From the IMG/VR virus record IMGVR_UViG_3300048997_000049, positions 1 through 47,748 of that record: 47,748 bases of DNA, one strand, 5' to 3'. Positions 2,967 through 47,748 of this stretch are shown in pieces (positions within the stretch are counted from its first letter, which is position 1; every line of letters begins with the position of its first letter). Source of the DNA: a virus. Below the pieces are notes generated by a model. That model did no database searches. It was not told the origin of the DNA and saw only the letters and a list, made by a program, of their open reading frames with translations. A program made the translations under genes and the position numbers.

Positions 2967-3049
2967 CGAATTGCCTTCATCCTCCGGCAAAGTTCGTTAA
3001 TACGCGGTTCGTCGAACGGGCAGCAAAATAACCACCTAAAAAGTCTCAT
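2963..3049 (-). CDS. Possible 28-residue coupled peptide
   Basis: A short ORF starts at an ATG inside the last codons of the SNF2 helicase gene (14-base overlap) and ends in an ATGA overlap with the zinc/HTH gene. The peptide is basic and cysteine-containing (MRLFRWLFCCPFDEPR, then CRRMKAIR). No strong ribosome site is visible; if translated it would rely on coupling to the helicase gene. Its main value may be to carry ribosomes onto the downstream start. Treat as tentative. Confidence 0.4.
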   Translation of the reverse strand: MRLFRWLFCCPFDEPRINELCRRMKAIR

Positions 3050-4529
3050 TATCATTTTCAAGCTCCTTGCGCCAACGTGAGGTAGTCCAGCGTGCTAAAT
3101 CTTCCTTCAATCGTAATGCTTTCACAATCATGTGGTCAATTGACTTCTGTCCACGTGGGCCTGTGGCTAAACAGTCTACGTAAGTGACGGCGGCAAGTTG
3201 ACCAGGGCGATGGCAGCGGTCCTCGGATTGTAGACGAATCCCCAACGAGAAGTCATTGGATAAATACACCACGTTGGTGGCGGCAATAAGATTGAGGCCG
3301 TGTCCTCCGGCGTGAGGTTGGGCGACAAGTACTCTTCGTTGGTCGTTATTCGTGGAGAAGGCATTAACCGCAGTTTGGCGCGCATTTTTTGATTGGCCTC
3401 CATATAATTCGTACACGCATATATCATTGCATTTTTCGCGTAAAAGTTCGACCAGGCGTTCTCTTTCACGTCTCCAACGACACCAGACGATGATCGCGTG
3501 TGACGCACATTCCTGTAAATATTCAACGCACCAGTCGAGTTTTTCAGAAGAAAAATTGGTTACAAGATCGGTTATGTCGTATGTGCCCTCGTCAAGCGTC
3601 AGTACCCCGTGTCCCAAATGCCCGCTGGTTAACTGCGCAAGTCTCATCAACCGCACCGCAGCGTTAGGCTCCAGTAATTTGTCGCCTGAATCAAGCGTCA
3701 TTACAAAGTCTTTCTTCAACTCCTGATACCGTTTCCATGACTCTTCAGTTAAAGCCACTTCACGATGTGTATATAACTTCTCGGGAAGGTCGAGGCAATC
3801 TTTCTTTAATCTTCGCAAGGCGTAGGGAGCGATTATCTCTGATAACTTGTCGAGATTTTTCCACTTAATGACTTGCTTAAAATTCCAACCACCCATAACC
3901 GCAAATGAATTTCGAAAGTGGTAGTAATTCTTGTACTTTTTACCAAGTATGTTTCGGTCAAGTACCAACATCTGTGCCCACAGGTCTAACGGCGAATCGG
4001 TCACGGGGGTGCCGTTCAACAGGACACACCGTGTACAATGCGAGCGAAGCTCAGCAATAGCTTCAGTTTGTGTCGCCGAACGGTTCTTGATGTAGCTCGA
4101 CTCATCAAGCACGAGCATTACCCGGTCAAACAGGACGCTAATCAAATCTTTAAGCCGTTGTTTACTTCGCAAAAATTCGTAGTTGGTTACGATCCAATAA
4201 AGTCGTGGATTTGACAATTCATCTTGCCACACGGTCCTATACTTCGTGTGAAATTCTTCGACTTGCGAACTTACCCATGAATGTTTCTTTATCTCGCCAA
4301 TTTCCTTGTCAACCCAGACGCAACGTACAGCGGCGGGCACAACAACAAGAACGATAGTAATGTCTCCCGTAGCGGCCAACGTACAAGCGGCGTCAATCAC
4401 CTGCTTAGATTTTCCGCTTCCCATCTCATCAAATAAAGCGAAACTTGGATGACGCACCAAGGCCTTAATACCTTCAAGTTGATGCGCGAAAGGTGGCGTC
4501 TTAAACCGAGTTGGGTCGAGTTCGATCAT
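3036..4529 (-). CDS. SNF2-type superfamily 2 helicase/ATPase
   Basis: A 497-residue protein with the full SF2/SNF2 motif set: Walker A at about residues 34-43 (DEMGSGKSKQ), motif II as VLDESSYIKN (DESS in place of DEAH), motif III LLNGTPVTDSPLDLW, and C-terminal motifs V and VI in GGHGLNL and SEDRCHRPGQ. The length is that of the compact phage SNF2 helicases that sit with DNA polymerase and VRR-NUC nuclease genes. It probably remodels or unwinds phage DNA during replication or recombination. The ATG overlaps the stop of the pyrophosphohydrolase gene (ATGA), tying it to the nucleotide-metabolism operon. Confidence 0.93.
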   Translation of the reverse strand: MIELDPTRFKTPPFAHQLEGIKALVRHPSFALFDEMGSGKSKQVIDAACTLAATGDITIVLVVVPAAVRCVWVDKEIGEIKKHSWVSSQVEEFHTKYRTVWQDELSNPRLYWIVTNYEFLRSKQRLKDLISVLFDRVMLVLDESSYIKNRSATQTEAIAELRSHCTRCVLLNGTPVTDSPLDLWAQMLVLDRNILGKKYKNYYHFRNSFAVMGGWNFKQVIKWKNLDKLSEIIAPYALRRLKKDCLDLPEKLYTHREVALTEESWKRYQELKKDFVMTLDSGDKLLEPNAAVRLMRLAQLTSGHLGHGVLTLDEGTYDITDLVTNFSSEKLDWCVEYLQECASHAIIVWCRWRRERERLVELLREKCNDICVYELYGGQSKNARQTAVNAFSTNNDQRRVLVAQPHAGGHGLNLIAATNVVYLSNDFSLGIRLQSEDRCHRPGQLAAVTYVDCLATGPRGQKSIDHMIVKALRLKEDLARWTTSRWRKELENDNETF

Positions 4530-4918
4530 GTTGTCAACTTATCAATAAACTGCTGCAAATCTGGCGGTTCATAACTCGCACCTTTACCCGACGGCCCGTA
4601 CTTTTGTCCAGCCTTAACGCGATGATCCTTACTCATATTGCTTCGATGCACCTCTCGAAAAGCCGCGTCGAACACCGGTAACAACCCATACGACACCACA
4701 GTGCCCAACACAACGTAAGTCAAGTCACAGAGTGCGTCCAGAATTTGCTCTTTGTCGTAGATGTGCATCGCCTCGACAAGCTCACCAAGCTCTGTCGCCA
4801 TCAGCTTAATTCGCAGCAGCTCAACGTCTCGGTCAAGGTCGAAATACTTGATTGCTAGCGGAATGTCGCCGCGAACCTCGTGAAACTCTGCGACCAGCTC
4901 TATCCAATTCTTTTCCAT
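4526..4918 (-). CDS. All-alpha (MazG/PRA-PH-like) nucleotide pyrophosphohydrolase
   Basis: A 130-residue helical protein with the acidic metal-binding pattern of this family: E43 and E46 in ATELGELVEAM, and D61 and D65 in ILDALCDLTYVV, followed by the conserved tail FREVHRSNMSK. Such enzymes hydrolyse NTPs to NMP and pyrophosphate. In phages that replace cytosine, an NTP pyrophosphatase (dCTPase in T4) removes dCTP and feeds dCMP to the hydroxymethylase, so this gene may serve that step here; the substrate cannot be read from sequence. The start follows a strong GGAGG site. It overlaps the helicase downstream (ATGA) and follows the VRR-NUC gene by 12 bases. Confidence 0.85.
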   Translation of the reverse strand: MEKNWIELVAEFHEVRGDIPLAIKYFDLDRDVELLRIKLMATELGELVEAMHIYDKEQILDALCDLTYVVLGTVVSYGLLPVFDAAFREVHRSNMSKDHRVKAGQKYGPSGKGASYEPPDLQQFIDKLTT

Positions 4919-4930
4919 CGTTTTACCTCC

Positions 4931-5281
4931 TCAAAAAAAGCGCAAAATGCGTTGACAAAGATTGTCAAATGTGTATATGTCATTGCTAGTTAAACCGTCA
5001 GGGTGTTCATCTAGCCTAAATAACCTTCCTCGCCTACTTTCAACATCCCAGATTAAGTACCAACCATGTAACTTCTTAACAATTTCGTACTGAAGCGGTT
5101 CAAAAATCTTCTTGTTATTTGACAACTTTACTTCACAAAATGTAGAGCGTCCATCTTGTGACACGCTGATGTCAGGCCAACCCGCGGTCATCATGTCACA
5201 GTGTTTCCACACGAGAACGTGTGGCGGATACAACTCCCTTAGTTTTTTAACTAGCTTGCGGTTGAAGTCGTTTTCGGTCAT
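4931..5281 (-). CDS. VRR-NUC domain endonuclease
   Basis: A 116-residue protein of the PD-(D/E)XK nuclease superfamily. The catalytic residues are in GWPDISV (Asp) and FCEVKL (Glu-x-Lys), preceded by the N-terminal helix FNRKLVKKLRELYPP typical of stand-alone viral VRR-NUC proteins. These are proposed to cut branched DNA such as Holliday junctions. Its start overlaps the polymerase stop (ATGA), and it is encoded between the DNA polymerase and the pyrophosphohydrolase, consistent with a role in processing replication intermediates before packaging. Confidence 0.9.
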   Translation of the reverse strand: MTENDFNRKLVKKLRELYPPHVLVWKHCDMMTAGWPDISVSQDGRSTFCEVKLSNNKKIFEPLQYEIVKKLHGWYLIWDVESRRGRLFRLDEHPDGLTSNDIYTFDNLCQRILRFF

Positions 5282-7029
5282 TTTCCCATCGCAAGGTACC
5301 AGTTTTTACCAGTACCTACTTGCCACATTAATGGAACTCGCAACTTCAATTCCTGCACCGCCAACAATTCCGTTACAAGTTCGACCGTATTATCACGGGT
5401 AACGTCACCTAAAATTTCATCGTGAAAGGTAAGTCTCGGCGTAAACCCTGTGGTTTTTCGCTCATTGTACAGCCGCAGCATCTTTAACTTCATGTAATCC
5501 GCAGCAGTCCCTTGTAACACAGAATTTAGGGCAGAATAAAATCTGTCTCCTTTAACGTATCTACGCTTTCGACCAATCGTAGTTTTTACCCACCCGCGAT
5601 TTTCTGCCAAACGAGTACAATATCCTAGTAACCGCTTCGCCTCGGGAAATGCTCCATCATACAAGTCATTGGTTTTACAGGCGTCATCATAAGTCAATCC
5701 CGTCATGGCGGCAATTTTATCGGGTCCTGCACCATACAACTTCGCAAAGTTTACGTTCTTCGCAAGTGATCTAATCATAATATCGTGTAGAATATCGTGA
5801 GTCACATAGTCATGAAAGTCGATGTTCGGGTCTTCGTAAGCCTTAATCAACCGTCGCGAGTGCGGGTACGGCACACAAGAAAAATGCGCAAACAAGCGGT
5901 ATTCAATCTGCGAAGCGTCAGTATCTAACAAGTCATTACCGTCAGCACCAAGAAACAGTTCACGCACAATCCACGGTTTAGTAACTTCGTTTTGCTTGTC
6001 TGGCTTGGGTACCTGCTGCATATCGCCTGCATACCGCCCCGTGATCGTACCGCCTTCATCGGCCCGCATTTGATGATAAGTGCCGTACAGCACACCATTC
6101 TTGACCGACTTCAAATATTTATTGCCGCACTTCGACAACCACGACTTCAGTTGCCGTATTTCTAGCGCTAATTGAATCGGCTTGAATTGTTTCGCGTACT
6201 CTTCGAGCGCATTGTCTGCAAATGACTCACGCGTCTTCCCGCTCGCTCCACCCTTTGTCGTATAACCCGTGTGAACCACTCCGAGATGCCGAAACAACTT
6301 GCCCATATCAGCAGAATCAGGATTGACCCGTAATCCGGTAAGTTGCCAAATTGCCAGCGTGCGCTCCAATATAGCCTGCTTAACCTCATCGCACCACCTC
6401 TCAAGCTTTAGAACGTCGAGTGGACACCCGTTTCGCTCCATCGCCAAGGTCGAGTAGATCAACGAATCTTCAAGTTCTAACACCTTACGTAATCCCTCTT
6501 GGTCAATATCATGTTGGTACGATTGCCAGAGGTCGTAGGTTAAGCGCACATCAATGCGAGCGTATTGTACGACCATCGGCGTAGGCAGCTCCCACACCCG
6601 TGGGTGTGGGAGCGCTACCTTGGACCGCCCTAGCCGTTCGAGGGCCAAAGCGTCTAAGCTGAAGGTGCGGCGATGATCGTCAAGCAGCCCCGCACAATGT
6701 TGTACTTCGTGAAGTCGAATGCCTAAATCTTCAAAACTACAACCACCTACTTCAACGGCCACTGTATCAAACTTTGCATTTAGGAAGACTAAGTCTCGAT
6801 CTATCAATTGATCTTCGATCCAATTGATAGATCGTTGATTCCACTCACAACACCACTCATCGTCAGCGGTAGCGATGGAAAAACAGAATGGACGGTCTTT
6901 ACCACGCAAATCTAGACCTGTCGTTTCTGTATCGAATGAGACGAATCCTGGCGGTAATTGATCTGGTAGACGATCAAAACCGCTAGTACGAGATGTCGTC
7001 TTCTCTTGGTATAATGTCATTTGACTCAT
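5278..7029 (-). CDS. Family A DNA polymerase with 3'-5' exonuclease
   Basis: About 583 residues, a compact T7-like polymerase. The exonuclease motifs are FDTETTGL, FLNAKFD and YARIDVRLTYDLW, so proofreading residues are intact. The polymerase motifs are A (DTDASQIEYRLFAH), B (RSLAKNVNFAKLYGAG) and C (TFHDEILGDV). At the position equivalent to E. coli Pol I 762 the residue is Phe (about F428 here). I use the ATG at 7029; a further ATG lies three codons on. The start overlaps the dCMP deaminase gene by about 47 bases. It is expected to copy the genome and, if the hydroxymethylcytosine model is right, to use the modified dCTP. Confidence 0.96.
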   Translation of the reverse strand: MSQMTLYQEKTTSRTSGFDRLPDQLPPGFVSFDTETTGLDLRGKDRPFCFSIATADDEWCCEWNQRSINWIEDQLIDRDLVFLNAKFDTVAVEVGGCSFEDLGIRLHEVQHCAGLLDDHRRTFSLDALALERLGRSKVALPHPRVWELPTPMVVQYARIDVRLTYDLWQSYQHDIDQEGLRKVLELEDSLIYSTLAMERNGCPLDVLKLERWCDEVKQAILERTLAIWQLTGLRVNPDSADMGKLFRHLGVVHTGYTTKGGASGKTRESFADNALEEYAKQFKPIQLALEIRQLKSWLSKCGNKYLKSVKNGVLYGTYHQMRADEGGTITGRYAGDMQQVPKPDKQNEVTKPWIVRELFLGADGNDLLDTDASQIEYRLFAHFSCVPYPHSRRLIKAYEDPNIDFHDYVTHDILHDIMIRSLAKNVNFAKLYGAGPDKIAAMTGLTYDDACKTNDLYDGAFPEAKRLLGYCTRLAENRGWVKTTIGRKRRYVKGDRFYSALNSVLQGTAADYMKLKMLRLYNERKTTGFTPRLTFHDEILGDVTRDNTVELVTELLAVQELKLRVPLMWQVGTGKNWYLAMGK

Positions 7030-7453
7030 CAATCACCCGAATATCCGCCCTTAAAAGTATTTCTTTACCCCGTGTATCAGCGTACTCTTCGGCTACACGA
7101 ACAATTCTTAATGCTGGCAAGTTCGCAAGCATTTTCGCACATTCAAAACATGGAGTGCAGGAACAGTACGCCGTAAACACCTTATCTAAGTCTTTACACT
7201 GTAAAATCGCATTCTGTTCAGCGTGTACGGCTTCACAATTTCGATTATCCCCGTGGCTATCGGTCGCGCCTGGACACGGTGTATCGGTGCAATGCGTAAA
7301 CCCTCGTGGGACTCCGTTGTATCCCGTGGCAAGCATTCGTCCCATTGAATCAACCAGGATACACGCAACCTGTCGCCTGCTGCACGTCGCACGCTTCGCA
7401 AAAATGCTAAGCATCAGGATATAGATTTCGTCTAAAGTTGGACGATAGGTCAT
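6983..7453 (-). CDS. dCMP deaminase
   Basis: A 156-residue zinc-dependent deaminase. The active-site His-Ala-Glu is in AVHAEQNAI, and the other zinc ligands are in CTPCFECAK; the N-terminal signature KRATCSRRQVACILVD is typical of phage dCMP deaminases. It converts dCMP to dUMP, the precursor of dTMP, and in hydroxymethylcytosine phages it balances the dCMP pool against the hydroxymethylase. The ATG at 7453 follows AAGGAG by seven bases. It overlaps the polymerase downstream and the small 87-residue gene upstream, so it sits in the middle of the nucleotide-metabolism cluster. Confidence 0.95.
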   Translation of the reverse strand: MTYRPTLDEIYILMLSIFAKRATCSRRQVACILVDSMGRMLATGYNGVPRGFTHCTDTPCPGATDSHGDNRNCEAVHAEQNAILQCKDLDKVFTAYCSCTPCFECAKMLANLPALRIVRVAEEYADTRGKEILLRADIRVIDESNDIIPREDDISY

Positions 7454-7670
7454 CACTTAACTCCTTGTAAAATGCTGCGATTTCATTTTTGAGATCTTTG
7501 CCAAGCGCGACTTCCTCGTCATACCCACTTGCTTGTTGTCCTTCTGCTACGACCGCAATTGCTCCACAATAAAATACACGCTTCAACTGTGCTTCAGTAC
7601 CAGCGCTCATATTCAGTGGCATCGTTTCTTGCTTAAACGTAAGCCACGCTTCAAGTATGGGAAAGCGCAC
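7407..7670 (-). CDS. Conserved small phage protein, 87 aa
   Basis: The GTG start at 7670 has AGAGGTG just upstream, and the pattern MRFPILEAWLTFKQETMPLN followed by LKRVFYCGAIAVV resembles a widespread phage protein of about 90 residues. Those usually begin with a leu/trp-rich helix, then a short FYxGA segment and an acidic helical tail. It overlaps the thymidylate synthase-family gene by 20 bases and the dCMP deaminase by 47 bases, unusually long overlaps that support coupled translation. The function of this family is not known to me. An ATG at 7622 is an alternative start, but would lose the conserved N-terminal helix. Confidence 0.75.
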   Translation of the reverse strand: MRFPILEAWLTFKQETMPLNMSAGTEAQLKRVFYCGAIAVVAEGQQASGYDEEVALGKDLKNEIAAFYKELSDDLSSNFRRNLYPDA

Positions 7671-8487
7671 GTAGCACCTCTAACGCTTCAACTGATGTTT
7701 GCGAATGGGCAAGCACCTCATAGTAACGGTCCCAAGGTTTGTCGATTACAACCCCATCCGTTGCACTAAATGCATCCTCGAGCCATTTCGGCGGCCGACC
7801 GGGTAACTTTGGTGAGCGATAGCAATTCGATGAAGTTTGCCAAACCACAATCGCGAGGTCCATCTTATCTCGGTACAGGTGCGACGACCCGAGATTCATT
7901 TGTAACCAGCCGCACTCAACACCAAGCTCTCCTGCGAGCATATTCGTTAACATCGAGAAATTAAAAAAGTCATACGGTAACCCGAGCCACACGTCAGACG
8001 AGCGCATTGTAACAATGCAGTTCAGGTGTTTATCCCGCAGTAAAAATTGAAAGTTTAATGTACAGGGGATGTCCTTCGACTCACTCGGCGAAGGTAACCA
8101 AATACTCGCGACACTTTGTCGCGAGTATTCGTCTTTCCGCAATTTTTGGATAATCCAATCCCACTGCGGTTTTAACCTGGGCCCATATGCACCTGAAAAA
8201 GTCAATTTGTCATCAGAAAATTGCGCGATTTGTTTGTTGTATCGCATCAACGAAGCCACGTCAGAGCGGCCTAGAGCGATCCACAGCCACTCGGCGACCA
8301 TGAAACGATAATTAGGTCGTCGTGCATCATTGATAAGAATATTTTCCCTCAAATCGGACATTCGCAGCACGACCCCAAGCTCTTCAAACGTGATCTGACC
8401 GCGCGGAGATTGCAGCTTACCTCGCTCCAGTAGGTGTTTTAACAGCCCAGTCCATACGTTATCGAACCTACCCTCAATCGTAATCAC
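7651..8487 (-). CDS. Thymidylate synthase-family enzyme, predicted dCMP hydroxymethylase
   Basis: A 278-residue thymidylate synthase-fold protein: AYGPRL, SRQSVASIWLP, catalytic Cys142 in DIPCTLNFQFLLRD, phosphate-binding Arg in MRSSDVWLGLPYD, and GSSHLY near the C-terminus. Thymidylate synthases have Asn (E. coli N177) exactly 31 residues after the Cys, contacting the uracil ring. Here that residue is Asp173, also 31 after Cys142, as in T4 gp42 (C148/D179), where Asp specifies dCMP. MRSxDV and GSxHxY also match T4 gp42 better than ThyA. The predicted reaction is dCMP plus methylene-tetrahydrofolate to hydroxymethyl-dCMP; a dCMP methylase is the main alternative. GTG start overlapping the kinase stop (GTGA). 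Confidence 0.88.
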   Translation of the reverse strand: MITIEGRFDNVWTGLLKHLLERGKLQSPRGQITFEELGVVLRMSDLRENILINDARRPNYRFMVAEWLWIALGRSDVASLMRYNKQIAQFSDDKLTFSGAYGPRLKPQWDWIIQKLRKDEYSRQSVASIWLPSPSESKDIPCTLNFQFLLRDKHLNCIVTMRSSDVWLGLPYDFFNFSMLTNMLAGELGVECGWLQMNLGSSHLYRDKMDLAIVVWQTSSNCYRSPKLPGRPPKWLEDAFSATDGVVIDKPWDRYYEVLAHSQTSVEALEVLRALSHT

Positions 8488-9407
8488 GCAGCCCCCAGTC
8501 GAATGTTGCGCAGTCGTTCAACATAGTCTTGACGCCCGTTACTTCCGAACCGTTTGACGTACTGTGGGTGTTCGACGTTTAAGTGGTCCACACCAAACTC
8601 TAACAGTCTGGTATGCGCGACTTCACCTAACGCTATGACCGTCTCAGGTGTCTCAATTGCGCTTACACGGGTGGGTAGGTTCACCTCTCCCTCACTATTG
8701 ATCGCGTTCATAAAAGCAATCTCGCGCTCTTCAAAGCCTGCGTCGTTCAGTACGTCATATAGCCATCCCGAGGAGTTGCGCGTCGTCATAAATGGTAGGT
8801 CAGGTACGCCGTTCGCCCGCTCACCGACAAATAGAAACCGAGGGTTCTGTGACCCAACCCAACCCTGCGGTAATGGCGTGCCGTGCATTACCACTAGCGC
8901 AGCGGCAAATGCAGGAGTCCTATGGCGCGTATAATCGTACCAAACAAAGTTACGGTTGCGCGAATGATTAAATAGTAGGCGCAAATAACTGTCATAAACA
9001 TCGTTAAAAACCCGCGCATGTTGTACATATTCTCCCTCATCATTTTGTCTTTTTAACCAGTTAGCAAATGCGACCCGTCGCAGTGGAAGACAAATCACAA
9101 TTTGCCCATCGACCGCTTCGATGTACCGTTCGATCAGTGATTCAGCTCGTTCTGTCATTGACGAGTTGCCGCGCATAAGTGGGCCATATACGCGGTCTGA
9201 TAGATGCAATCTGTCAAATACCACGGGTAAATTTTCACTTGCGGCGTACAGAGGGTTAAAAAAGTATCTAAAAATGGCTTCCTCACTCGTTAACGCCGCG
9301 TCTGGAGGCACACCAAAATGAATGTTCTTAAACCCGCGCTGTTCAAGTTCACTAGCTAAGGTTGACTTTCCGGCGCCGTCAGGACCTTCCAGGATTATTA
9401 AGTTCAC
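8484..9407 (-). CDS. dNMP kinase fused to a uracil-DNA-glycosylase-like domain
   Basis: Residues 1 to about 170 are a thymidylate-kinase-like P-loop kinase: Walker A LEGPDGAGKST at 6-16, the DR motif in VVFDRLHLSDRVYG, and a lid region with LRRVAFANWLKRQ. Residues from about 185 to the end resemble the UDG superfamily fold: FLFVGERANG, an Asn-containing FMNAINSE strand, VIALGEVAHTRL and a C-terminal HPQYVKRFGS. The kinase would phosphorylate dNMPs, including hydroxymethyl-dCMP as T4 gp1 does. The second domain might sense or handle the base, but its activity is unknown and the glycosylase catalytic residues are not clear. GTG start with GGGAG upstream, overlapping the preceding stop. Confidence 0.8.
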   Translation of the reverse strand: MNLIILEGPDGAGKSTLASELEQRGFKNIHFGVPPDAALTSEEAIFRYFFNPLYAASENLPVVFDRLHLSDRVYGPLMRGNSSMTERAESLIERYIEAVDGQIVICLPLRRVAFANWLKRQNDEGEYVQHARVFNDVYDSYLRLLFNHSRNRNFVWYDYTRHRTPAFAAALVVMHGTPLPQGWVGSQNPRFLFVGERANGVPDLPFMTTRNSSGWLYDVLNDAGFEEREIAFMNAINSEGEVNLPTRVSAIETPETVIALGEVAHTRLLEFGVDHLNVEHPQYVKRFGSNGRQDYVERLRNIRLGAA

Positions 9408-9544
9408 TTACCACTCCCTTTGAACCACCCACAGCGGTCACATAAAAATCGTATCGGAAATAGTATAGCATCGATCACTGAATCGTTTCTAAGCAATGTT
9501 CGCCAGGCGAAGTAAATGGCGACGACTACTGCAAAACCTTTCAT
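9404..9544 (-). CDS. Small membrane protein with C-terminal CxxC, 46 aa
   Basis: GGAG lies five bases before the ATG at 9544, and the start overlaps the stop of the HTH gene (ATGA), so this short frame is preferred to a longer out-of-context reading. The N-terminal 20 residues (MKGFAVVVAIYFAWRTLL) form one likely membrane helix; a second hydrophobic stretch (AILFPIRFL) leads to CDRCGWFKGSGK, a possible metal-binding knuckle. The stop overlaps the GTG of the kinase fusion. It may anchor or regulate an early function at the membrane; nothing more can be said. Confidence 0.65.
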   Translation of the reverse strand: MKGFAVVVAIYFAWRTLLRNDSVIDAILFPIRFLCDRCGWFKGSGK

Positions 9545-9711
9545 TTTTTCTCCAAAAGTTTCTTTGCCCGTCGAATCGCCCGAATTATCGTATGACGCGA
9601 GCAAGTCATTCTTGCCGCAATGTGCACATGTTGCAAGTCGCCCCGTTGGTACCGCTTGTAGATACCTAGGCACATTTCGTCGGTAAATATCTTATGAGCC
9701 GACAACCGCAT
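9541..9711 (-). CDS. Small helix-turn-helix protein, 56 aa
   Basis: The sequence FTDEMCLGIYKRYQRGDLQH then VHIAARMTCSRHTIIRAI fits a resolvase/homeodomain-like helix-turn-helix, with a lysine-rich tail (RRAKKLLEKK). It is comparable to the small HTH gene at 2766-2966 and may be an early DNA-binding regulator. The start is inside the end of the glycosyltransferase gene (20-base overlap); ATG 9711 has GGAG very close, and ATG 9723 is an alternative adding four residues. The stop overlaps the next ATG. Confidence 0.65.
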   Translation of the reverse strand: MRLSAHKIFTDEMCLGIYKRYQRGDLQHVHIAARMTCSRHTIIRAIRRAKKLLEKK

Positions 9712-10702
9712 TCTCCAGCGCATTATCAATATGCGCGAGTGTTTGAGCCCGGTCATTTACCGTATGGTCAAAGAACCATTTCGACTGCCACTCTGCTAAG
9801 TCATGCAGATTGGCAGTATCCATCTTTTCAATTTCTGAAATGCGGTAGGAATAAGGACTATGCCCCGCCTTGCTTTGGTAAAAATCCATCGACAGAGCGT
9901 CAGTAAGACCGCACTTAAGAACATTACCCAAAACAGCAGCGTGATGGTATCTAACGCGCCACCAGCCAGATCCTGCGGACTTATACTCAGGGCATAACAC
10001 ACCCCAGGAAGTTGCATAGTTTTCAAGCACCTCCGCTTCAGGATAATACGTGTCACCCGCACTTTTAGCCCCGAGACGACACACGGGCCACTGTGGATTC
10101 ATTGTCTTCAGCCAATCGTTATGATCTTGTAACGTGGCGTATACCCAACGACGTTGCCGCAGGGATATAAAATACGGTAACTTAATGTTAACAAGAGGTG
10201 TTGGGTCCCATGCAAATACCCGCATGTTATCGAGGTTGTTCCTGACAAGTTTTGTGTGGTCACCCCACGGAAACATCGGCGCAAGCATCGGGTAGTCACC
10301 TGCGAGAATCTTTGTAAGTCCCGCAACAACCGCCTCTTTCTCCGGCTCACTAAACTTCATAAATTCTGACCACTGCGGCATACAGCGTAACGCAGACATC
10401 ATGTTGCCACCCGCAACCGCGATTGACCAGTCGTCACAATAAGTTATCGCTCGTTTTGCCTTCAACAAAGTCCAACACGCTTCATGAGTGTGCCGCGCAG
10501 TTAAAGACTTCGGAGGGCCAATACCGACCAACGCAAGATGGTAGCTCGACAAGTCTTCACCGAACTTAACCGCCCGATGGTCAACTTCGTGTCCTGACTC
10601 ACGAAGCGCGTCAGCAAGGATATATACCGAAGTTAAGTAATCGTACCTTAACTTCTGCGAATTACACATTCTTTGAGTAAAACCCGTGATCAATATTTTC
10701 AT
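9692..10702 (-). CDS. GT-B-like glycosyltransferase, predicted DNA-base glycosyltransferase
   Basis: The 336-residue protein opens with a Rossmann strand and glycine turn (MKILITGFTQRM), followed by TSVYILADALRESGHEVDHR, then LALVGIGPP, and ITYCDDWSIAVAGG, where T4 beta-glucosyltransferase has an equivalent strand ending in TD. The C-terminal half has VLGNVLKCGLTDALSMD and a helical tail, matching the order of a GT-B nucleotide-sugar domain. Similarity to known DNA glucosyltransferases is at the level of layout, not identity. Context is the main argument: it lies between a C5-cytosine methyltransferase and a hydroxymethylase/kinase pair, so hydroxymethylcytosine in DNA is the expected acceptor and a host UDP-sugar the donor. 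ATG overlaps the end of a short upstream frame (ATGA). Confidence 0.65.
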   Translation of the reverse strand: MKILITGFTQRMCNSQKLRYDYLTSVYILADALRESGHEVDHRAVKFGEDLSSYHLALVGIGPPKSLTARHTHEACWTLLKAKRAITYCDDWSIAVAGGNMMSALRCMPQWSEFMKFSEPEKEAVVAGLTKILAGDYPMLAPMFPWGDHTKLVRNNLDNMRVFAWDPTPLVNIKLPYFISLRQRRWVYATLQDHNDWLKTMNPQWPVCRLGAKSAGDTYYPEAEVLENYATSWGVLCPEYKSAGSGWWRVRYHHAAVLGNVLKCGLTDALSMDFYQSKAGHSPYSYRISEIEKMDTANLHDLAEWQSKWFFDHTVNDRAQTLAHIDNALENAVVGS

Positions 10703-10820
10703 GCGATGTCTTTAACCCCTAGCACAGTACGAATCCCCTCGGTATGGTGATAAGATTTTTTTGACTTACCTGTACCCGTACTATCTTTATTCTTACCGCC
10801 ACTTCGTAAGTATACATTTT
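10703..10820 (-). other. Intergenic spacer with a start-less open frame
   Basis: This 118-base spacer separates the methyltransferase stop from the glycosyltransferase start. One frame is open from 10833 to a TGA that overlaps the glycosyltransferase ATG. Its translation (with GGKNKDSTGTGKSKKSYHH and a C-terminal VLGVKDIA) looks like a basic phage tail peptide, but it has no usable ATG, GTG or TTG near its beginning. A second frame gives a 32-residue MYTYEVAVRIKIV peptide. No promoter or terminator is evident. Either a rare start codon is used or this is a remnant. Confidence 0.4.
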
Positions 10821-11960
10821 TTATAAAACATTGTCAACAAATAAATTATCTACATTCCTTTGTTTAACTTCAGCCTTCTTCACTCGCATGTCGGCGGTCT
10901 CACCGGGTTTAATTTCGTAAACATACTCGTTAACTGTTAATGGAGTAAGCAAGGTTTCACCTTGCAAGTTACTACGAACTTCCTCCAATAACCACTTGGC
11001 CACAGGTGGGGCGACGCCCTTACTGAGGTAACACTTTTGCTCTCGCGGCTTGTCGAACTTATAATCTGCGGGAAAGCCAGCGATGACATTGAGTTCGGGC
11101 ATATTGACGGGTCGACCTAGGTAAAGCCAGTTACTAACGCACATTACGGTGTGAGCGAAACCGTCAAGCGGTAGCATTGTGAAGACGTGGCTGTCGAAGC
11201 TAGATATGTTGTACTTTAGCTTCGTTTCATAAATATCAGCCTCTTCGACCGCCGCGATGGTACGTCCAAGATGACCCGTAAATTCGGTGGTGATTAACCT
11301 AATTGACTCATTTGTCATACCGCCAGTTTTAAGTCCATCGCATTGCCTGCTCCAATACTTTTCGGTATACGGATTTTTTTCGCCTTCAATACCCGTGCCT
11401 AAAGCTTCTCCAAGTGTCACGTACTTTCGGGTGTGTCGCAAGATGAGTTGATTGATCAGCCCTTTTCGTACCATGACTGTCCAATAACGTGGACGCCACT
11501 GTGGCACACCGAACGTGCAGGCGTTTTGGAGGATTCGATAACAATCATAGGGATGCGAACTGGCCCACTCGTCATAGAAATCTTTCGCTCCGAGGTAAGC
11601 GCCTGTAACAGACTCGATGACAATAGCGGCAGCGTCAAACGCGGCTGAGTAGTCGAGAACTCGCTTCGTGCAGTTGAAGTGCGACGAGTTAACCCCCTTG
11701 TTCGTTGAATTATTCTGCGCACTAAATGCGGCGCACGGCGGGTGCGCCGCAACGATGCAGTCAGCCAACGCGCGATCATGTAGCATAGGCCAAGGAAGCT
11801 GATCAATATAAGTAAGTCGAGGAAAATTAAGCTTTTGAGTTCCCAGGGCATAGCCAGAGTCCTCCATTGAGGCTAGTATGTCGAAACCTGCCTGTGTCGC
11901 AGCGAGAGTGATGCTTCCCGCATAACTGTTAATAACCAATACTTTATTGAACTGGGACAC
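10821..11960 (-). CDS. C5-cytosine DNA methyltransferase
   Basis: About 379 residues with the C5-MTase motif order: motif I VINSYAGSITLAATQAGF (the usual FxGxG is degenerate), motif IV AAHPPCAAFS with the catalytic Pro-Cys, motif VI IVIESVTG (Glu retained, ENV reads ESV), motif VIII GVPQWRPRYW, and motif X near KGVAPPVAKWL. The catalytic Cys and Glu are both present, so it should be active. Target recognition lies around residues 190-310. The GTG at 11960 is chosen because AAGGA lies eight bases upstream; a TTG nine codons earlier is possible. It overlaps the small membrane gene by 17 bases. Its role beside a predicted hydroxymethylation route is unclear; it may protect DNA or act on the modified base. 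Confidence 0.88.
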   Translation of the reverse strand: MSQFNKVLVINSYAGSITLAATQAGFDILASMEDSGYALGTQKLNFPRLTYIDQLPWPMLHDRALADCIVAAHPPCAAFSAQNNSTNKGVNSSHFNCTKRVLDYSAAFDAAAIVIESVTGAYLGAKDFYDEWASSHPYDCYRILQNACTFGVPQWRPRYWTVMVRKGLINQLILRHTRKYVTLGEALGTGIEGEKNPYTEKYWSRQCDGLKTGGMTNESIRLITTEFTGHLGRTIAAVEEADIYETKLKYNISSFDSHVFTMLPLDGFAHTVMCVSNWLYLGRPVNMPELNVIAGFPADYKFDKPREQKCYLSKGVAPPVAKWLLEEVRSNLQGETLLTPLTVNEYVYEIKPGETADMRVKKAEVKQRNVDNLFVDNVL

Positions 11961-12141
11961 AGGGAGATTCCTTTCCGTCAGGTCCAACGTAACTCATACA
12001 TGGAACAGTGCGGCTGGGAATTGAGCTTTCGATGCGGTCTAGTTGTACTTTTAACTTACTAATATTGTCCGCTGTCATAAGCATCCAAACAAAAATGCAA
12101 GCTACTATAATGAAAGTCCACTTTTCATAGTTCGTGTTCAT
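11944..12141 (-). CDS. Small membrane-anchored protein, 65 aa
   Basis: GAGAGGGAAACG precedes the ATG at 12141, and the start lies inside the end of the primase gene (17-base overlap). Residues 7-25 (KWTFIIVACIFVWMLMTA) form one transmembrane helix, followed by a short amphipathic/coiled segment (ISKLKVQLDRIESSI) and a tail with two cysteines that could form a disulphide outside the cytoplasm. No family is recognised. Position in the early operon suggests a host-takeover or membrane-association role rather than lysis. Confidence 0.7.
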   Translation of the reverse strand: MNTNYEKWTFIIVACIFVWMLMTADNISKLKVQLDRIESSIPSRTVPCMSYVGPDGKESPCVPVQ

Positions 12142-14440
12142 CGTTTCCCTCTCGCAACTTCATACCCACCCAAACGTGGGCATTCCCTGTGCCGATCCCG
12201 GGTACAATTTCGATGTTATACCCCATGGTCTTTAACCTCTTTGCCAAATACTTCGAACTCATCGGGAACCGAATACCATTTTCGCGGCACCACGACTGAT
12301 ATACCTCGTACAGTTTACCGTGCTTCAGATAGTCCTTGTGCCCGTTGTTTGACTTGACAATTAATTGCCGAAGCGCGTCGGCCACCGGGTCCATGTCGTC
12401 GCGCAGCTGCTCGACCGCGTGTAGCACCTTCTGTGGCGGTTGTAGCCCAGTGCGTTGCCACTCCAAGCATCCCTCGACGGCCTTCGCCAGCACGCCTTCA
12501 AGCTCGCCCATAAGCTTGAGCGACAGGGTCTTATCGACTTCAGTCACTCGATACTTAAATGGAATGAAGTGGAGTCGATCCCAGAATGCGTGGGCGGTGT
12601 CGTGCACCTTAGGTACGTGGTTCGTCACGAGGAATAGCTTAAACTGCGGCTTAAACTCAAACTCACCGCTATATAAAAAACGGGCTCGAACTGTGTCCGA
12701 GCCCGTCAAAGACTTTACCATCGCGGCATCCAGAGTTTCTGACTCGTCCGCCTCCGATGCGATCACAACCCTCGAACCCGCCAAGTGTGCAATATCATCA
12801 TTTGGGCCACCGGCCTGTTTCCGCGATAGGAATGTCTGGAACCTAGCCGTTTGCGCGTACTTGTCAAGCAGCGCGTGTAACACTTCGATGAATGTTGTCT
12901 TACCGTTTCGTCCTTCTCCGTGTAAGATGAAAAAGATGCGCTCCGTCGTGATGCCGGTGAGACAATACCCCATAACCCGCCAAAGATATGCGATCATATC
13001 TTTGTCGTTTTCCATAATCTCTTCGAGAAACTTGTCGAACAGCGGACACTTCGCCCACGCGGTATATTCAACGCTTGTGCCGCGAGTCAAGTAATCTGCT
13101 CTTTGTCCTTCAGTCACCGAAGCGTCTTTCAAATCAACTACGCCGTTACCCACCGCAAGCTTCATCGGCTGCTGGTCAAGCAACGTATCTTCAAGCCTCA
13201 ACCTCCACCGCAGCACCGTATCTAGCGAAGTCAACCTGTGCGCTTCTCCAGCCTGTATCGCCCACTTGTATGCACGGGGGGCGTCTTCGTCGCCCGCTTG
13301 CCGCAACTGTAACGAATTGCGCATCAGTTCGCTGGGAACTTGTTCGGTCGCGTGCTTAAGCTCTTGGTCTGCTTCGCGCTGCCACGCAACACCATTCCAC
13401 GACAGCCACTCCTTCCATCTGGTGACGAACCTAAAATTGTCGCCGTTGAGTCTGATGAATATGTCAGAGTTCCCTAGATCGTTGCGGGTGGGAACGTTGC
13501 CGACCTCAGGATCGTATAGTGCGTGGGCGACAGCGCAAGCCTCAGTGATCGTCTTTTGTCCATAGGTCATCGCGCCGCGCCGTTGGTCCCACTTGTCTCT
13601 AATTAGCTTTGACTCGCGAAACAACTTATCTATCCTGATTGGGTCAGCGCGAGTCCAATAAGCTAGCATGACACACAGCGCAAGGTCAGCGCGAGAGTGA
13701 TCGTCACCATAGTCTTCTAGACTGCCGCTCCACAACCTCGTGAATTTGCCGCCGTTCGCTGCATTCGTCGCAAGCAGTATCAGCTCCGTGTCGGTTATTG
13801 CTTGTACTGCGGAAAGCTTACGAGCCTCATCGTCGGGAGCAAGCCGCGGCTTTGGACGTCGCTCAGCATGGGCAGGCACTCCAAATATAAGCTCGTACAT
13901 CTGGTCAAGCTTCGCCTGTCTCTCTTCAATCTGGTTCCAGTTGAGCACGTTGCCGGTGATAGTAAAGTACCGCGCCGTCGAGTACATTTCGATCTTGTTA
14001 CGCCTTACCTCAACTCCGGGAGAGGACGCTTTGACGATGATCTTTACACCTGTACCCGACGGACTGACCTCAACGTAGGACTCCATCGTATCGACGATGA
14101 TTTGGGCCCAATCAACAAGTAAGCCTGTCTCTTCATCGCGGCATTCGTCGATGTCAATGCCTGTAAATGGGTCGTTGTTCGTGAAAACGAAGCCGATACC
14201 CGCGAGATTCTTGTCACGTTCGAAGCATGTGCAGGCCTGCTCGAACGTACCCCAACAAGATGGGTTGGTGACACTCGCGTCTTCACCATCATTCGGATTG
14301 ACGGGCACCTTGGCCGGCTTAGAGTCAACACGGGGGTGTACGCGCCATGCAACCCACTGCGGCGTGTCTCGTAGAATTGCAGGTATATTTACAAAGTTTG
14401 CGGGAATGGACCGATCATACCGAGGGGGACGTCCGCGCAC
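12125..14440 (-). CDS. Bifunctional primase (AEP) and SF3 helicase
   Basis: A 771-residue P4/D5-like replication protein. The N-terminal archaeo-eukaryotic primase domain has the catalytic DxD at D96 and D98 in FTGIDIDEC, then SPSGTGVKI and RYFTITGNVL. A central D5_N-type region is followed by the SF3 helicase: Walker A GEGRNGKTTF near residue 510, Walker B IASEADES, and the sensor strand KLFLVTNHVPKV. The C-terminus (YEVYQSWCRENGIRFPM) is a D5-like winged helix. It would prime and unwind at the phage origin. The GTG start at 14440 has GAGG four bases upstream. Just upstream lies an AT-rich spacer with several dyads, a candidate origin. Confidence 0.92.
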   Translation of the reverse strand: MRGRPPRYDRSIPANFVNIPAILRDTPQWVAWRVHPRVDSKPAKVPVNPNDGEDASVTNPSCWGTFEQACTCFERDKNLAGIGFVFTNNDPFTGIDIDECRDEETGLLVDWAQIIVDTMESYVEVSPSGTGVKIIVKASSPGVEVRRNKIEMYSTARYFTITGNVLNWNQIEERQAKLDQMYELIFGVPAHAERRPKPRLAPDDEARKLSAVQAITDTELILLATNAANGGKFTRLWSGSLEDYGDDHSRADLALCVMLAYWTRADPIRIDKLFRESKLIRDKWDQRRGAMTYGQKTITEACAVAHALYDPEVGNVPTRNDLGNSDIFIRLNGDNFRFVTRWKEWLSWNGVAWQREADQELKHATEQVPSELMRNSLQLRQAGDEDAPRAYKWAIQAGEAHRLTSLDTVLRWRLRLEDTLLDQQPMKLAVGNGVVDLKDASVTEGQRADYLTRGTSVEYTAWAKCPLFDKFLEEIMENDKDMIAYLWRVMGYCLTGITTERIFFILHGEGRNGKTTFIEVLHALLDKYAQTARFQTFLSRKQAGGPNDDIAHLAGSRVVIASEADESETLDAAMVKSLTGSDTVRARFLYSGEFEFKPQFKLFLVTNHVPKVHDTAHAFWDRLHFIPFKYRVTEVDKTLSLKLMGELEGVLAKAVEGCLEWQRTGLQPPQKVLHAVEQLRDDMDPVADALRQLIVKSNNGHKDYLKHGKLYEVYQSWCRENGIRFPMSSKYLAKRLKTMGYNIEIVPGIGTGNAHVWVGMKLREGNDEHEL

Positions 14441-15488: not shown

Positions 15489-16349
15489 TTACTTCTTTGC
15501 CGCGACGGCAACCTCTTTCTTGCCGGATTTGGTTCCCTGAACGGCAGGCGGTTTCGCCGACGTTTCAACCTTCGCCGGTTCGTTCATTGCGTCCAATTTT
15601 GCCGCGGCATTCTTCTCCTCGGCGGCGGTCGGTTTCGGTGCAGGCGCAACGGGGACGGGGGTGACGTCTTTCGTGAGCACGACACCCTCCTTCTCCATCT
15701 TGACCAGGTGCCATCGCACTGACTTCTCGAGCGGGTCCTTTGTTTCGTACCGACCTGTGTTATCGACCCACGACACAATCGTGCCCAGGTCGCACGGTCC
15801 TGTGTGCTTCTGCATGACGCTGACGATGATTGCATCGTGGTTCGTGGTCTGTTCGTTTGCAACTTTCTTCGTGATCGATTCTGGCAACGTCGCGTTGAGT
15901 TCGTAGGTGAACACACGGGACGATGCACGCGGAGTGGATTCTTTCTTGATCTTGTCATTCATCTTGTATCCTCCTGTTTTGATTGATTCGACGACGTTCA
16001 GATAGTGCGCTTCGCGTTCGTCGCGGTTCTTTACAACATTTGTTGTAGGACCGCCGGGGATCTGTTCGTACCACGCATATTGCAGGCGTGATATAGCGGT
16101 CCAACGAATCTCGTCGTATGGTACGGGCACGGGTTGAAGGATTGTGATCTTGCTGTCGGGTCGTTGTTCGCCAATGACAGTCGTTTCGATGCCGAGGTTA
16201 ATTGCGATACGCAACACCGTTTCGCGGGGTAATTCGCCGAATGCGTTGACAAGTTTGACGTTGCCGAACGCCTCCAACGGCGCTTCGAGATTGACGAACA
16301 CGGGTTCGCCGATAGAACACTTCCCGTTCTCAAACTTTACGTAGTCCAT
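15489..16349 (-). CDS. Early protein of 286 aa with an internal start for its winged-helix-like half
   Basis: Translation can start at 16349 (AGGAGG upstream) and run the full frame. Residues 1-125 (FVNLEAPLEAFGNVKLVN, then ETVLRIAINLGIETTVIG) form one domain. Residues from 130 on form another: YELNATLPESITKK, then MQKHTGPCDLGTIVSWVDN and VRWHLVKMEKEGVV look like a winged-helix domain, followed by an Ala/Pro/Lys-rich tail. The junction codes for IKTGGYKMNDK, and its DNA is an AGGAGG ribosome site seven bases before an ATG at 15962, so a separate 157-residue protein is probably also made. The layout suggests two genes fused by loss of a stop. Likely an early DNA-binding or structural protein. 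Confidence 0.75.
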   Translation of the reverse strand: MDYVKFENGKCSIGEPVFVNLEAPLEAFGNVKLVNAFGELPRETVLRIAINLGIETTVIGEQRPDSKITILQPVPVPYDEIRWTAISRLQYAWYEQIPGGPTTNVVKNRDEREAHYLNVVESIKTGGYKMNDKIKKESTPRASSRVFTYELNATLPESITKKVANEQTTNHDAIIVSVMQKHTGPCDLGTIVSWVDNTGRYETKDPLEKSVRWHLVKMEKEGVVLTKDVTPVPVAPAPKPTAAEEKNAAAKLDAMNEPAKVETSAKPPAVQGTKSGKKEVAVAAKK

Positions 16350-47608: not shown

Positions 47609-47748
47609 CTACGACTCTCCCTGCGAAGCGCCACCCGGCGCGTCCTTCTCTTGGGCGCAGGCGGCAACCACCTGAGCCTGCTTCTCGGTCAGCAAAAATT
47701 CCGTCACGGAATTATCACCATGTCTCTGAGTGATGCGTAAGTGGTGCA
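47609..47748 (-). CDS. Small accessory protein, C-terminal part (continuation of the gene starting at 194)
   Basis: This is the 3' part of the junction-spanning gene, ending at the TAG at 47611-47609. Bases 47622-47748 duplicate 1-127. The C-terminus reads ACAQEKDAPGGASQGES; the GGASQGES ending is shared with the gene at 47150. In a circular map this joins to the start codon at 194-192 to give 68 residues. Confidence 0.75.
   Translation of the reverse strand, partial: HHLRITQRHGDNSVTEFLLTEKQAQVVAACAQEKDAPGGASQGES
47622..47748. repeat. Terminal direct repeat, right copy
   Basis: Identical to bases 1-127; see the left copy. Joining the ends at this overlap gives a 47,621-base circle and restores the split small gene. 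Confidence 0.95.

Follow-up and report, generated by a model that had tools for sequence, protein, structure and literature searches.

Bacteriophage T4 produces DNA containing glycosylated hydroxymethylcytosine (hmC) through the actions of gp56, gp42, gp1, and its glucosyltransferases. An operon in the virus record IMGVR_UViG_3300048997_000049 raises the question of whether a much more compact phage could build a similar base by a similar route. The window analyzed here is the entire 47,748-nucleotide stretch of this record. Positions 1-127 and 47622-47748 are identical, and this 127-bp direct terminal repeat suggests that the genome, at roughly 47.6 kb, is probably represented in full, in agreement with the size given in the first-pass annotation. 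That annotation had also described the phage as podovirus-like, a description weakly favored by a short match to a tail tubular protein A. Family searches with the phage structural proteins mostly produced no matches.

The minus-strand operon spans positions 3036-14440 and is tightly packed, with overlaps of 4-50 bp between most neighboring genes. Its ORFs were assigned to families by searches of Pfam and PHROGs (Table 1). All ORFs named in the first-pass annotation are present on the minus strand at or near the positions it had assigned, and its calls of a family A polymerase (PolA), a dCMP deaminase, and a C5-cytosine methyltransferase (C5-MTase) homologue agree with the Pfam and PHROGs matches. 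Endonuclease-like proteins of the kind encoded at 4931-5281 also follow PolA in the related loci L008, L010, L011, and L018. In addition, the window encodes a 286-aa protein at 15489-16349 that has a homologue near the cassette in its closest relative, L025.

Table 1. Features of the minus-strand operon, with the evidence for each assignment
Coordinates	Strand	Feature	Evidence or remark
3036..4529	-	SNF2-type helicase	Pfam SNF2-rel_dom 1e-21; downstream operon end (context)
4526..4918	-	All-alpha NTP pyrophosphohydrolase (NTP-PPase; PRA-PH/MazG type), candidate dCTP remover	Pfam PRA-PH 3e-11; PHROG 671
4931..5281	-	Small endonuclease-like protein, ancillary	PHROG 93 endonuclease 3e-7
5278..7032	-	Family A DNA polymerase with 3'-5' exonuclease-like region	Pfam DNA_pol_A 6e-43
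6983..7456	-	dCMP deaminase	Pfam dCMP_cyt_deam 2e-16; PHROG 174 5e-36
7407..7670	-	87-aa ORF within operon	No family match in Pfam or PHROGs
7651..8487	-	Putative dCMP hydroxymethylase (TS family)	Pfam Thymidylat_synt 5e-28; D143-x-x-C146-T147, D177
8484..9407	-	P-loop kinase ((d)NMP-type) fused to UDG-superfamily domain	AF2 model, Foldseek; Pfam and PHROGs weak
9404..9673	-	89-aa ORF with paired CxxC motifs	Sequence; no significant Pfam match
9692..10702	-	BGT-like GT-B glycosyltransferase (GT), proposed hmC-DNA glycosyltransferase	AF2 model, fold matches
10821..11987	-	C5-cytosine methyltransferase homologue, motif VI altered (E-S-V)	Pfam DNA_methylase 2e-12
12125..14440	-	Primase/helicase	PHROG 1829 5e-184; upstream operon end (context)

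The case for hmC begins with the thymidylate synthase (TS) family enzyme, which was aligned with E. coli ThyA, T4 gp42, and SPO1 gp29 and is described here with E. coli numbering. It carries Asp143, Cys146, Thr147, and Asp177, the same residues as T4 gp42; the corresponding residues are Leu, Cys, His, and Asn in E. coli TS and Asp, Cys, Asn, and Asn in the SPO1 dUMP enzyme. This alignment confirms the dCMP-type Asp that had been proposed for the window protein. A published signature of hydroxymethylases places an Asp three positions ahead of the catalytic Cys (PMC6400193), and the window enzyme reads KDIPC at this site. Arg166 and Ser167 are retained as well, and a Ser at position 167 is characteristic of enzymes with deoxynucleotide substrates (PMC5175136). 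The C-terminal tail of TS is absent. The suggested comparison with gp42 reveals one signature that differs, namely Ser94 (Ser or Thr two residues before the catalytic Tyr), which is Gly in the window enzyme (GAYG) and is likewise absent from SPO1 dUMP hydroxymethylase. Among 77 cassette TS enzymes, which are not a random sample since they were gathered by similarity to the window enzyme, Thr147 is present in all 77, Asp143 in 76, and Asp177 in each of the 76 that can be aligned at this position. The best match among solved structures is MilA, a CMP hydroxymethylase. These sequence comparisons support the view that the enzyme is dCMP-hydroxymethylase-like.

For two other nucleotide-handling proteins, the first-pass assignments were upheld in part. 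The protein encoded at 8484-9407 had been called a dNMP kinase, and its kinase character is upheld, but rather than a plain dNMP kinase it appears from AF2 and Foldseek results to be a fusion of a YorR-type kinase with a domain of the UDG superfamily. Its AF2 model (pLDDT 91.3) has an N-terminal half that resembles YorR and thymidylate kinases and a C-terminal half that resembles UdgX and the UDG of T. thermophilus. The Pfam UDG match (3e-4) falls under the curated cut-off, and the P-loop kinase match is weak. The region of UDG motif A (GEAPG) reads GERAN in the window protein, and the His of motif B (HPS) is replaced by Pro in 20 of 36 kinase-UDG sequences, which suggests that a binding role is likelier than a glycosylase role. 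The Pfam PRA-PH match marks the protein at 4526-4918, the gene for which adjoins the cassette in most relatives, as an NTP-PPase that is a candidate dCTPase; neither BLAST nor HHalign yielded a credible match to T4 gp56.

The GT has no Pfam match, and comparison of its profile with PDB sequences yielded nothing credible. Because this sequence search was empty, fold comparison was used instead. An AF2 model built from 49 sequences (pLDDT 90.6) adopts a GT-B fold, and the top PDB match identified by Foldseek is T4 BGT (1j39, E 1.2e-6, TM 0.63). Indeed, T4 BGT fills ranks 1-6 and T4 AGT rank 7, so the earlier suggestion of a GT-B-like glycosyltransferase holds in the model. When the same model is compared with viral models, the best matches appear to come from the GT's own family, and one of them is a Gordonia phage Phendrix protein. 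Asp90, Asp91, Trp92, Arg249, and Arg251 are invariant among the 49 GT sequences, although the invariance of the GWWRxR motif is partly selected because this motif doubled as a search pattern for relatives. In the predicted structure, Asp91 follows a strand much as does the catalytic Asp of BGT (D100), a suggestive correspondence assigned by strand position only. HHalign comparison of the family with the single T4 BGT sequence returned a weak and uninformative N-terminal stretch. Thus, the modeling supports a confidently predicted GT-B fold that is closest to those of T4 BGT and AGT. The family to which this GT belongs is widespread, BGT-like, and unnamed, with most members annotated as hypothetical. 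Such a family, tied to dCMP hydroxymethylases, may be new.

The tie is seen in gene neighborhoods. A cassette of kinase-UDG, TS, deaminase, PolA, GT or C5-MTase, and NTP-PPase genes recurs in many viral contigs. When loci were picked by GT alone, with at least 8 kb of flanking sequence on both sides, the resulting 26 loci (some of them near-duplicates) included TS in 25, PolA in all 26, and kinase-UDG in 16. All six isolated GT-bearing phages examined (GMA2, Sixama, DSL-LC01, Rgz1, FBB1, and phiAS4) encode a TS with the residues D/E143-T147-D177, and in the T4-like phages FBB1, Rgz1, and phiAS4 a normal TS is present beside the D177-type enzyme. Behind the GT gene, many contigs as well as DSL-LC01 and the Gordonia phages carry another GT paralogue, a divergent one that perhaps adds a second sugar (L022, 11312-12292; L019, 13148-14137).

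MW202657, one of the phages related to AXL3, has both TS and GT, whereas a scan run without a positive control found no GT in MW202621, AXL3, L006, L008, L011, or L015. The presence of the cassette in AXL3 and these four L loci without a detected GT indicates that the GT is not obligatory. Stenotrophomonas phage AXL3 (47,545 bp) shares the kinase-UDG, D177 TS, deaminase, and NTP-PPase with the window. Of 37 enzymes applied to its DNA, only a pair whose sites consist of A/T cut it, and the 35 that have G/C in the recognition site all left it uncut (PMC7504290). This wet-lab result from a relative favors the modification reading, and it speaks to G/C modification in general rather than to the GT. 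Homologues of the TS and kinase are also present in the 38-56 kb group that includes PW916, HTVC200P, and the Manatee Spring phages. The claim that a compact version of the pathway would be notable therefore fails, as phages of 38-56 kb with related cassettes (AXL3, PW916, HTVC200P, HTVC119P, and the Manatee Spring phages) are already in databases. Two side observations concern loci that lack a detected GT. In L008, the stretch between the TS and dCMP deaminase genes (8744-11748) encodes one HAD-like protein, one nucleotidyltransferase of MobA-like type, and a pair of proteins without assigned function, a possible alternative decoration module. Two class I methyltransferases (5240-5977 and 9120-10097) flank the cassette in L006.

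We consider it highly probable that the products of this operon yield DNA with glycosylated 5-hydroxymethylcytosine along a route resembling that of T4, in which both the formation of hmC and its glycosylation are inferred. The NTP-PPase would lower dCTP levels and supply dCMP, part of which the deaminase, given the function of its family, would send to dUMP and dTMP. The TS family enzyme, as its residues suggest, would hydroxymethylate dCMP. The kinase-UDG fusion would then phosphorylate hm-dCMP, and its UDG domain may recognize the modified base. A host NDP kinase could finish hm-dCTP, as is established for T4, for incorporation by PolA. After replication, the GT, judging from its predicted fold, would move a sugar from a host UDP-sugar onto hmC, and the C5-MTase might act on DNA cytosines or on hmC. 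The expected outcome is resistance to host restriction. A literature search found no nucleoside analysis for the window phage or for any carrier of this GT. Of the original proposal that genomic cytosine is replaced by glycosylated hmC, the hmC-based pathway is supported by the TS residues and the GT fold, while the replacement of all cytosine, or the choice of any one sugar, would go beyond this support.

Other readings of the same genes must be weighed. The gene names and order fit a path from dCMP through dUMP and dTMP to dTDP, which is how the AXL3 genes have been read (PMC7504290). The operon would then be an ordinary thymidylate-synthesis cluster, with TS producing dTMP, the kinase producing dTDP, and the DNA left unmodified. 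This reading is extremely improbable given the coexistence of such a TS with a normal TS in T4-like GT carriers and the resistance of AXL3 DNA to enzymes with G/C sites, and plain thymidylate synthesis was rejected on the grounds that every relative examined has other residues in place of Asn177 and His147. A second prospect is that the TS family enzyme is a dCMP methylase like that of XP12, which would yield 5mC DNA and leave the GT to act elsewhere, such as on the cell surface. Literature cited in PMC8670742 indicates that Asp177 by itself turns TS into a dCMP methylase, and the operon also includes a C5-MTase. We judge this very unlikely, as the water-activating Asp143 is kept in all but one of the 77 cassette enzymes, the TS tail is missing, the GT fold is nearest to those of DNA glycosyltransferases, and the GT gene is linked to a D177 TS.

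A variant that is compatible with glycosylated hmC concerns the sugar itself. UDP-galactopyranose mutase genes adjoin the GT homologues of phiAS4, FBB1, and DSL-LC01, and genes for an arabinose-5-phosphate isomerase and a nucleotidyltransferase adjoin that of Morganella phage Rgz1. Genes of the latter kind have been proposed to function in UDP-arabinose synthesis in RB69 (PMC6024577). These neighbors provide independent support for sugar transfer to hmC and hint that some GT members use arabinose or furanose donors. Thus, hmC might be made as proposed but decorated with a furanose or pentose, either arabinose or galactofuranose, in place of glucose, a possibility that we regard as real but improbable. 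No recognized sugar-nucleotide enzyme gene was found in the window genome, which means that such a donor would need to come from the host, and HHalign detected no relation between the GT and RB69 ORF003c, a proposed arabinosyltransferase.

Glycosylated hmC, whatever its sugar, would place the operon alongside several known systems. With T4 it shares the dCMP hydroxymethylase residues, a dCMP deaminase, a kinase, and a GT of BGT/AGT fold in one genome. It differs from T4 in having a 47.6-kb genome, a family A polymerase, an NTP-PPase from a different family, and a C5-MTase, as well as in its YorR-type kinase with a UDG domain and in a GT whose detectable sequence similarity to BGT is limited to the weak N-terminal stretch. 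The phages Rgz1, FBB1, and phiAS4 likewise combine a dCMP hydroxymethylase with a GT homologue that is about 24-26% identical to the window GT, but all three are large Straboviridae in which the phage itself encodes sugar-nucleotide genes adjoining the GT. The Actinomycetia phage DSL-LC01 and the Gordonia phages GMA2 and Sixama share the GT family, C5-MTase subfamily, D177 TS, and a MazG-like or dUTPase-like gene, whereas they differ in their 103-129 kb genomes, their second GT paralogue and, in DSL-LC01, the mutase. MetaGPA associated Asp177 TS, PRA-PH, and dCMP deaminase with cytosine-modified contigs, and the 5-carbamoyloxymethylcytosine cassettes from that study share this core but carry a carbamoyltransferase as the decorating enzyme in place of the GT (PMC8670742). 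It is largely supported that the window operon is a compact and modular member of the hmC hypermodification systems with an unnamed BGT-like GT family.

What merits further attention is the GT family, together with the kinase-UDG fusion and the unusual C5-MTase, rather than the small size, which has precedents. Fold, linkage, and co-occurrence with dCMP hydroxymethylases tie a large and mostly "hypothetical" phage protein family to DNA glycosylation. If this tie is true, phages with modified cytosine could be predicted from metagenomes, and candidate DNA glycosyltransferases would be at hand, including those from the cultured phages GMA2, Sixama, phiAS4, FBB1, and Rgz1.

Canonical C5-MTases carry the sequence ENV at motif VI. 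The window C5-MTase keeps PPC at motif IV, and its motif VI reads ESV. All 24 aligned cassette members have E[S/C]V at this site, while the sole matching solved C5-MTase structure carries ENV. A cassette C5-MTase in which the motif VI Asn is replaced by Ser or Cys may be new. Relatives in the phage collection comprise 11 records (nine Gordonia records, DSL-LC01, and one Rhodobacteraceae phage). A scan of viral contigs queried with this C5-MTase alone gave no match, and the relatives for alignment were taken from the cassette loci instead. The enzyme occurs in cassette loci with or without the GT. It might belong to a divergent subfamily, marked by E[S/C]V at motif VI, of dedicated hypermodification enzymes that apply Cys-C6 adduct chemistry to hmC in DNA, giving a final base beyond glycosyl-hmC, but we consider this unlikely. 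In L011, which has a dCMP-type TS and no detected GT, the C5-MTase gene adjoins one (11789-12802) for a protein with a 5-hmdU DNA kinase helical domain (PF18723, E 2.3e-35), a possible hmC DNA kinase.
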